A stretch of 64,000 nucleotides of DNA, taken from NCBI RefSeq assembly GCF_003990725.2, contig NZ_CP030064.1:1736001-1800000 (forward strand), read 5' to 3'. Made by a program: the position numbers and the translations under genes. This stretch comes from Halorubrum sp. PV6. GTDB taxonomy: Archaea; Halobacteriota; Halobacteria; Halobacteriales; Haloferacaceae. This document shows positions 22,463-23,048 of this stretch, piece after piece (positions within the stretch are counted from its first letter, which is position 1; every line of letters begins with the position of its first letter). Under the pieces are notes generated by a model. It ran no database searches. It was given only the letters and a program-made list of their open reading frames with translations, and was not told the DNA's origin.

Positions 22463-22700
22463 CGGCGGTCGATTCGGTCGCCGTGGTCGTCGACGCGACC
22501 GGACTCGTCCGCGTCTCGGCCGGCGACCGCGCCGGCGCTCTCGACCGTCCCGCGCGTCCCCGGTGAGTCCCGGCGGCTCAGGACGCGACACCTCCGTTCA
22601 TTATGGGGAACACGACGCCCGACCGGCACATAAGTACACGGCCCGTCGCCCGCGTGTGTTCACCCGGCAGCGGCCCGCGAAGTTGCTCGGCGTGAAGACG

Positions 22701-22722
22701 GTCCGGGTGCGAGAATTGAACC
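22701..22722 (-). repeat. Relic copy 1 of the tRNA-His 3' end
   Basis: 22 bases matching 22827-22848 of the intact tRNA-His in the same orientation with one mismatch. Partial tRNA 3' duplications are the footprints left by integrases that target tRNA genes. Confidence 0.65.
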
Positions 22723-22725
22723 ACG

Positions 22726-22748
22726 GTCCGGATGCGAGAATCGAACCC
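22726..22748 (-). repeat. Relic copy 2 of the tRNA-His 3' end
   Basis: 23 bases matching 22827-22849 of tRNA-His with one mismatch, immediately after copy 1. Together they suggest at least two past integration or excision events at this tRNA. Confidence 0.65.
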
Positions 22749-22826
22749 GAGGCGAGACTCGCTCCGCTCGTCTCGCGTGATTCAATCTCACCTTCCGTCC
22801 CTCTTCGTCACTACGTTCCTCAGAAG

Positions 22827-22900
22827 GTCCGGGTGCGAGAATCGAACCCGCGTCTCAGCCTCCACAAGGCTGAAGGATAGTCCACTACCCTAACCCGGAC
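22827..22900 (-). tRNA. tRNA-His (anticodon GTG)
   Basis: Read on the minus strand, the acceptor helix TCCGGGT/ACCCGGA is seven perfect pairs and is preceded by an encoded extra G that pairs with the discriminator C, the G-1:C73 identity mark of tRNA-His. The anticodon arm is CAGCC-TTGTGGA-GGCTG with anticodon GTG. The T arm holds GGTTCGATTC. No CCA is encoded. No intron is visible. Confidence 0.95.
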
Positions 22901-23048
22901 ACGCGTCGACAACTATCCTGCTTTGATAAATAACCGTTACGACTCCCGGACGGGCGTGCGACGCGGTGTCGTCCGAGGACCTGCGCGTCGGCCGGCGCGT
23001 CGACGACCACGTCGTTTTTACTCTCGCCGGGCGTATCGCGAGCCACTC

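Follow-up and report, generated by a model that had tools for sequence, protein, structure and literature searches.

Hairpin units with copies of tRNA 3' ends lie downstream of haloarchaeal tRNA genes and may be gene-less inserted cassettes

Introduction

Downstream of the tRNA gene tyrT of Escherichia coli, tandem repeats of 178 bp (rtT RNA) are found, each of which contains a segment of the tRNA's 3' end. In integrons, short cassettes build up beside a fixed site, and the imperfect inverted arms of attC, whose core is GTTRRRY / RYYYAAC, fold one strand into a duplex core. An integrase acting in the T-loop of a tRNA gene would leave a block of identity extending from the T-loop to the tRNA 3' end. 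For archaeal elements which target tRNA genes and which carry genes including an integrase, a tRNA 3'-end repeat at the target and the use of tRNA loops as att sites have been described (PMC8371274), and island DV11 of Haloquadratum targets tRNA-His (PMC3119063). Haloquadratum walsbyi moreover harbors the SMR-A repeats and PATEs, gene-less palindromic sequences of about 110 bp. No target duplication is reported for SMR-A, the repeats sit in other mobile elements, they are not specific for tRNA genes and the mobilization route of the SMRs is reported as unknown (PMC3119063). MITEs, too, are small, non-autonomous palindromic units (PMC3119063), and their ends are set by a transposase.

The window analyzed here, a stretch of 64,000 nucleotides from Halorubrum sp. 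PV6 (NZ_CP030064.1, positions 1,736,001 to 1,800,000), contains a tRNA-His gene followed by two copies of its own 3' end. The sequence between them and the gene belongs to a type of unit of about 100-120 bp that contains no gene. Compared to the tyrT repeats, which are longer and confined to one tRNA, the haloarchaeal units stand behind many tRNAs and in many members of the class and possess an inverted arm and two hairpins. Like integron cassettes, they are predicted to fold one strand into a duplex by imperfect inverted arms and build up beside a fixed site, the copy nearest to the platform usually being the most faithful one. By contrast, the tRNA units are gene-less and have many platforms per genome, and the attC core is absent from them, as none of the 31 near-perfect copies has a base other than C or T after GTT. 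With the tRNA-targeting integrase elements (PMC8371274) they share the tRNA 3'-end repeat, whereas they measure only about 100 bp and carry neither genes nor an integrase. Unlike the ends of MITEs, those of the units vary with the target tRNA; fixed terminal inverted repeats were not found, since the arms follow the host tRNA. Size and inverted arms match the description of SMR-A, yet in the units a tRNA segment of 20-22 nt is repeated.

A paper on archaeal integrons does not contain the terms Halobacter, haloarchaea or tRNA in the text consulted (PMC9668308), and the parts examined of an integron survey of halophiles including 47 archaeal genomes do not describe units at tRNA ends (PMC7923331). 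As no description of hairpin units behind haloarchaeal tRNA genes turned up in the open-access library searched, the arrangement is apparently undescribed, with the SMR-A repeats and integron cassettes as its nearest counterparts.

Results and Discussion

The tRNA-His gene of the window and its downstream region are composed of the following features, listed from the gene outwards:

22827..22899, minus strand: tRNA-His (GTG), the target gene (ARAGORN, 22826-22899; Rfam RF00005, 49.7 bits, 22827-22899)
22793..22826, minus strand: E module, trailer hairpin abutting the tRNA-His 3' end, in sense direction CTTCTGAGGAACGTAGTGACGAAG...; comparable hairpins behind other tRNAs, by eye
22780..22792, plus strand: inverted, imperfect copy of the T-arm of tRNA-His, predicted by folding to pair with the direct copy
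22748..22779, minus strand: H module of family H1, hairpin GCGAGAC..GTCTCGC; with up to two mismatches, this hairpin adjoins nine tRNA species
22726..22747, minus strand: direct copy 2, T-loop to 3' end of tRNA-His, 1 mismatch in 22
22701..22722, minus strand: direct copy 1, differing from the tRNA-His 3' end at one position of 22
22671..22700, minus strand: presumed degenerate E-like hairpin past copy 1, by eye like the GCGGCTCGCGGTGTTGCTCGCCGCGAGAAG type of relatives

On the plus strand, the 3' end of tRNA-His reads GTCCGGGTGCGAGAATCGAACC from position 22827. Copy 1 (GTCCGGGTGCGAGAATTGAACC) and copy 2 (GTCCGGATGCGAGAATCGAACC) start 126 and 101 bases to the left of the tRNA-His end, have the same orientation as the gene and deviate from it by one mismatch each, as had been noticed in a previous sequence-only reading of the window. 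This reading had placed copy 1 correctly, whereas copy 2 ends at 22747 and not at 22748, and is thus one base shorter. It had also stated that no element is left between the copies. This is true of the 3 bp that separate copies 1 and 2, but the 79 bp between copy 2 and tRNA-His form an ordered palindromic module. Remnants of an integrase or of other element genes were not detected between the repeats, these 79 bp consisting of hairpin sequence only, and a search of Rfam with positions 22650-22950 returned the tRNA itself (RF00005) as the sole match and none to the unit. With only 3 bp between it and copy 2, copy 1 is probably the remnant of an older, collapsed unit.

To survey tRNA genes, 300 bases on each side of the tRNAs of the window's genome and of four other haloarchaeal genomes were inspected. 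ARAGORN called 47, 6, 28, 26 and 6 tRNAs in them (113 altogether); all 46 listed tRNAs of the window's genome were covered, while the four others were represented partially, by the top of the tRNA score list. A copy was recorded if the last 22 bases of a tRNA recurred with at most four mismatches and at most 300 bases away. Downstream copies were obtained for 42 of the 113 tRNAs, or 40 after subtraction of two tRNA-Asp hits on a neighboring tRNA-Asp gene. Upstream copies numbered two, both of which were again the neighboring tRNA-Asp gene. The outgroup consisted of nine genomes from other classes within the phylum. Their 52 tRNAs gave two raw hits downstream and two upstream, all of which were excluded because they were real neighboring tRNA genes, so that 0/52 remained downstream (40/113 versus 0/52, Fisher p 2.4e-8). 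Since downstream copies are frequent while upstream hits are neighboring genes only and the outgroup has none, a chance origin of the copies can be ruled out. Plain tandem duplication of tRNA genes was rejected as well: the copies stop at the T-loop, and hits on real neighboring tRNA genes had been removed.

The unit is widespread in Halobacteria. The palindromic pattern GATTYGAAC-N18-46-GTTCRAATC was found in 117 of 145 genomes of the class, representing 53 of 58 genera; its reversal, used as control, matched none of the 145 genomes. Thirty palindrome loci, one each from 30 genomes, were inspected, and 26 of them were located downstream of a tRNA at a distance of 18 to 269 bases, 19 with no more than four mismatches to the 3' end of that tRNA. 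At the other four, no tRNA was called nearby. In the window's own genome this strict pattern has no exact counterpart, owing to the imperfect arms of its units. In this genome, tRNA-Phe (L226) and tRNA-Tyr (L239) are followed by tandem units of 122 bp and 135 bp, respectively, which look identical in print, suggesting recent amplification. Behind its tRNA-Arg (CCG) lies a tandem hairpin repeat of about 81 bp with an acceptor-like end and without a full T-loop copy (L220), possibly a variant unit, and at L235 two tRNA-Asp genes about 30 bp apart precede a unit.

Within the genus of the window, tRNA-His was present in all 52 genomes searched. Allowing up to five mismatches in 24, a downstream copy of its 3' end was found in 24 genomes and was absent from 28. 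The nearest copy was 98-157 bases away from tRNA-His, and in 21 of the 24 filled genomes 101-116 bases. The sequence-only reading had held that copies conserved in all relatives regardless of elements would point to another function; such copies do occur in relatives, but in a part of them only. A 22-mer scan of named genomes yielded at least 119 stretches. The best 80 of 119 were examined, a sample picked by motif and hence not an estimate of prevalence. Three of the 80 lacked tRNA-His and one was interrupted by a contig end, leaving 76, two of which had fewer than 90 bases downstream. Among the matches listed, a downstream copy with at most four mismatches in 24 was present in 32 of these 76 motif-selected stretches, and the genera with tRNA-His copies among the matches listed included Natrinema, Natronorubrum, Halogeometricum, Halobellus, Halorientalis and Halapricum.

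The units have a common anatomy and are specific for the tRNA that they adjoin. In a typical unit, hairpin E follows the tRNA 3' end and precedes the inverted imperfect T-arm, after which come hairpin H and the direct copy. The inverted T-arm sometimes includes acceptor bases, and a second hairpin of the E type often follows past the direct copy. The repeated segment comprises the T-loop, the 3' strand of the T-stem, the acceptor 3' strand and the discriminator base, while the 5' strand of the T-stem is not retained in direct copies. In 19 of 31 near-perfect cases, the direct copy started two nucleotides before the TTC of the T-loop, in the others 1, 3, 4 or 7 before it; the two preceding bases being mostly GG, the edge may lie at the TTC. 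The opposite end coincided exactly with the annotated tRNA 3' end in 16 of the 31 cases and was at most four bases off in 28, the other three copies extending 23 bases or more beyond it.

In 37 of 40 units, nine or more direct-copy bases are paired to the inverted arm according to the predicted fold, though the duplex is imperfect. The variable part of the inverted arm resembled the unit's own tRNA with a mean score of 12.75, compared to 10.10 (sd 0.34) after permutation, and none of 20,000 permutations reached as high a value. With whole-arm scores, the adjoining tRNA ranked ahead of all others in the set for just nine of 40 inverted arms, since the T-loops are alike. An inverted T-loop (at most one mismatch in nine) was present in 22 of 40 units versus seven of 71 tRNAs without copy, and these seven may be partial units. 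A mobile element with a fixed att site was ruled out, as the arms follow the tRNA. Within the tRNA-His units (n=36), the T-loop base of the copy and that of the inverted arm did not covary significantly (p 0.22). In 22 of these 36 inverted arms the same single T is missing (ATC for ATTC), which leaves one bulged base and is reminiscent of the extrahelical bases of attC.

The units fold better in sense (mean z -4.15) than in antisense direction (-3.03) and better than the sequence downstream of the 71 copy-less tRNAs (-1.06). A hairpin motif, CGAnC..GnGAG, which would form tandem G-A pairs, was found in 33 of 40 units in sense and in four in antisense direction, as well as downstream of 10 of the 71 copy-less tRNAs and in the upstream flanks of 13 of the 113 tRNAs. 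It is conceivable that the unit acts as RNA, in that inverted arm, H and direct copy would form a tRNA-like acceptor/T-arm minihelix within the 3' trailer, serving in processing, decoying or regulation. Better folding of the sense strand, the G-A motif on it and the tRNA-specific arms are in line with such a role, and so is the end of the direct copy, which in the 16 cases mentioned above coincides with the mature 3' end, where tRNase Z cuts. On the other hand, the units are patchy among relatives of the genus (24/52), their copy number varies and Rfam knows no family for the unit of the window besides the tRNA. Taken together, a functional RNA appears somewhat unlikely, but it is a live rival of the insertion model set out below.

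Further information came from the H1 hairpin. Allowing two mismatches, it gave 24 hits in 20 of the 145 class genomes, belonging to several genera, two genomes contributing two hits of one array each; its backward control gave no hit in the 145 genomes. Eighteen of the 24 hits followed a tRNA gene of the same strand, the distance being 44-63 bases in 17 cases. The adjoining tRNAs belong to nine species, namely His, Arg (two kinds), Gly (two kinds), Ala (two kinds), Lys and Val, and by eye the arms flanking H1 are mostly those of the adjoining tRNA. One hairpin thus occurs beside nine tRNA species, mostly together with the arms of the adjoining tRNA, from which it follows that the modules are shared while the arms are local. 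At six of the 24 loci no tRNA was called in the right place. H1 hairpins at L316, L319 and L338 adjoin CGATTCGAATTCGCGCCGGCCCA and no called tRNA, perhaps due to an intron-containing tRNA missed by ARAGORN.

These data also bear on the question of whether the units arise as a mutational by-product, i.e., whether hairpin-prone tRNA 3' ends yield direct and inverted copies by template switching and palindrome correction, without any dedicated enzyme. Such an origin would be compatible with units that are palindromic throughout, with arms matching the local tRNA and with tandem units that are nearly identical (122 bp at tRNA-Phe, 135 bp at tRNA-Tyr, 111 bp at L093). However, the occurrence of H1 beside nine tRNA species and in several genera indicates that modules travel, the ends are similarly sharp over many tRNAs, and none of the 52 outgroup tRNAs has a copy. 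We regard plain template switching as unlikely, though it, too, is a live competitor of the cassette model.

That tRNA-His is an attachment site, as the sequence-only reading had suggested, was corroborated in relatives. In genome G042, a stretch of 21 kb lies between tRNA-His and a repeat of 42-43 nt, and the integrase adjoining the tRNA, the one integrase which was subjected to a Pfam test, belongs to PF00589 (E 1.6e-18). A repeat was found 42 kb away in G029, and an imperfect one of 45 nt 3 kb away in G048; the published Haloquadratum island points in the same direction (PMC3119063). By eye, the distal 43-nt att of the 42-kb stretch in G029 (L057) is flanked by the apparent end of a second integrase element, probably reflecting tandem integration at tRNA-His. 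The large elements at tRNA-His have repeats of 42-47 nt that reach into the anticodon arm, whereas the copies in the units comprise 22-24 nt and end at the T-loop. Both kinds exist side by side in L093 and L145.

The proposal that the 22-nt copies are scars of earlier integrations, left by degraded elements, did not withstand this comparison. It would agree with the fact that in G042, and probably in other genomes, an integrase element uses tRNA-His, and a T-loop integrase would be expected to leave a repeat of this kind, from the T-loop to the 3' end. Nevertheless, full elements in relatives bounded by the same 22-base core, for which the sequence-only reading had proposed to look, were not what was found, the elements at tRNA-His having a different att with the longer repeats. 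The short spacing, the inverted arm, the hairpins and the presence of copies at about a third of the sampled tRNAs argue against scars as well, making them a most improbable explanation. Palindromic elements of haloarchaea moved by transposases of the IS200/IS605 type (PATE, SMR-like), which happen to prefer tRNA ends, are another candidate. The SMR-A repeats of Haloquadratum are similar in length (about 110 bp), have inverted ends and insert into palindromes, but in the sections consulted they are described as entering other mobile elements and are not reported to duplicate their target (PMC3119063), while the units repeat the tRNA segment. This origin seems very unlikely.

To compare filled and empty sites, the 120 bases to the left of the outer copy in the 24 filled genomes were aligned with the sequence to the left of tRNA-His in the 28 copy-less genomes. 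Five of the 24 filled genomes had a convincing empty partner. For G022/G010, G028/G027 and G031/G009, 115, 103 and 99 of 120 positions were identical, respectively, and the alignments extended to the same base. Two pairs concern the end of an integrated element, G034/G029 with 32/33 identical positions and the same base, and G023/G042 with 60/62 and one base off. In ten further filled genomes the best alignment reached the junction but was short or diverged, and may merely reflect common E modules; in nine, including that of the window (G000), it fell short of the junction. In part, the pairs could represent losses by recombination between the 22-bp repeats.

The order of events differs between genomes. 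In G023 and G034, the unit is located between tRNA-His and the element end, while in G042 and G029 nothing separates the element from the tRNA; judged from this arrangement, the unit would most simply have arrived after the element. In Halorubrum ezzemoulense (L145) and Haloarchaeobius sp. FL176 (L093), units lie beyond the 43-47-nt att of a large element and therefore arrived before it. At L093 (2631-3080), there are five copies of the tRNA-His end at a spacing of 111-116 bp, the last of which is the 43-nt att. No tRNA was called in the 8 kb, and this array has apparently been displaced by the large element.

The polarity of arrays was determined in a sample of 301 distinct tRNA loci enriched for units, 155 with a copy and 37 with two or more. 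In these 37 arrays, the tRNA-proximal copy was more faithful in 20 cases and the distal one in three, 14 being equal (p 0.0005). Such a polarity agrees with array growth at the tRNA; gene conversion by the tRNA could likewise keep proximal copies faithful.

To account for these observations, we propose, at slightly less than an even chance, that the units are gene-less hairpin cassettes inserted in trans at the T-loop and 3' end of tRNA genes in an integron-like manner, perhaps as folded single strands; both the enzyme and this intermediate are inferred. A putative site-specific recombinase acting in the T-loop would insert the cassettes. Its substrate may be a single strand folded into a dumbbell, in which E and H form the caps and the tRNA 3' end the stem. 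New cassettes would enter adjacent to the tRNA, and the inverted arm may be kept tRNA-like by pairing or palindrome correction. Other conceivable routes are tRNA-primed reverse transcription and insertion of the Cas1/casposase type. Of the cassettes in the window, one would then be complete (22726-22826) and another, represented by copy 1, collapsed. A folded strand as substrate would account for the absence of the 5' strand of the T-stem from the copy and for the presence of one faithful and one imperfect arm. On the other hand, this missing strand is unlike an ordinary double-stranded attP core and counts against the cassette model, as do the lack of T-loop covariation within the tRNA-His units and the three arrays whose distal copy is more faithful. 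The small number of convincing empty partners and the palindrome and H1 loci without a called tRNA likewise speak against it. Collections of viral contigs, plasmids and phages were scanned for the cassette without a match at the settings used.

Halobacteria may use their own tRNA genes as the platforms of an integron-like system, a wider proposal which we consider possible but doubtful. Gene-less cassettes folding as single strands, with the 3' end of the target tRNA as recombination core, would be inserted next to the T-loop by a tyrosine recombinase of the host or of a mobile element. The tRNA would remain intact, ordered arrays would result, and hairpin modules might be exchanged among tRNAs by way of the common T-loop sequence.

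Conclusions

With units at about a third of the sampled haloarchaeal tRNA genes, tRNA 3' ends would serve as a platform throughout the genome, as opposed to occasional landing sites of viruses. If the units are inserted, they would represent a novel process of small-DNA insertion that leaves tRNA function unharmed and fits its arms to the respective target. Should they instead act as RNA, they would be a novel class of tRNA-mimicking trailers. Either reading bears on the question of why tRNA genes are hot spots of recombination, and can be tested in genetically tractable haloarchaea.
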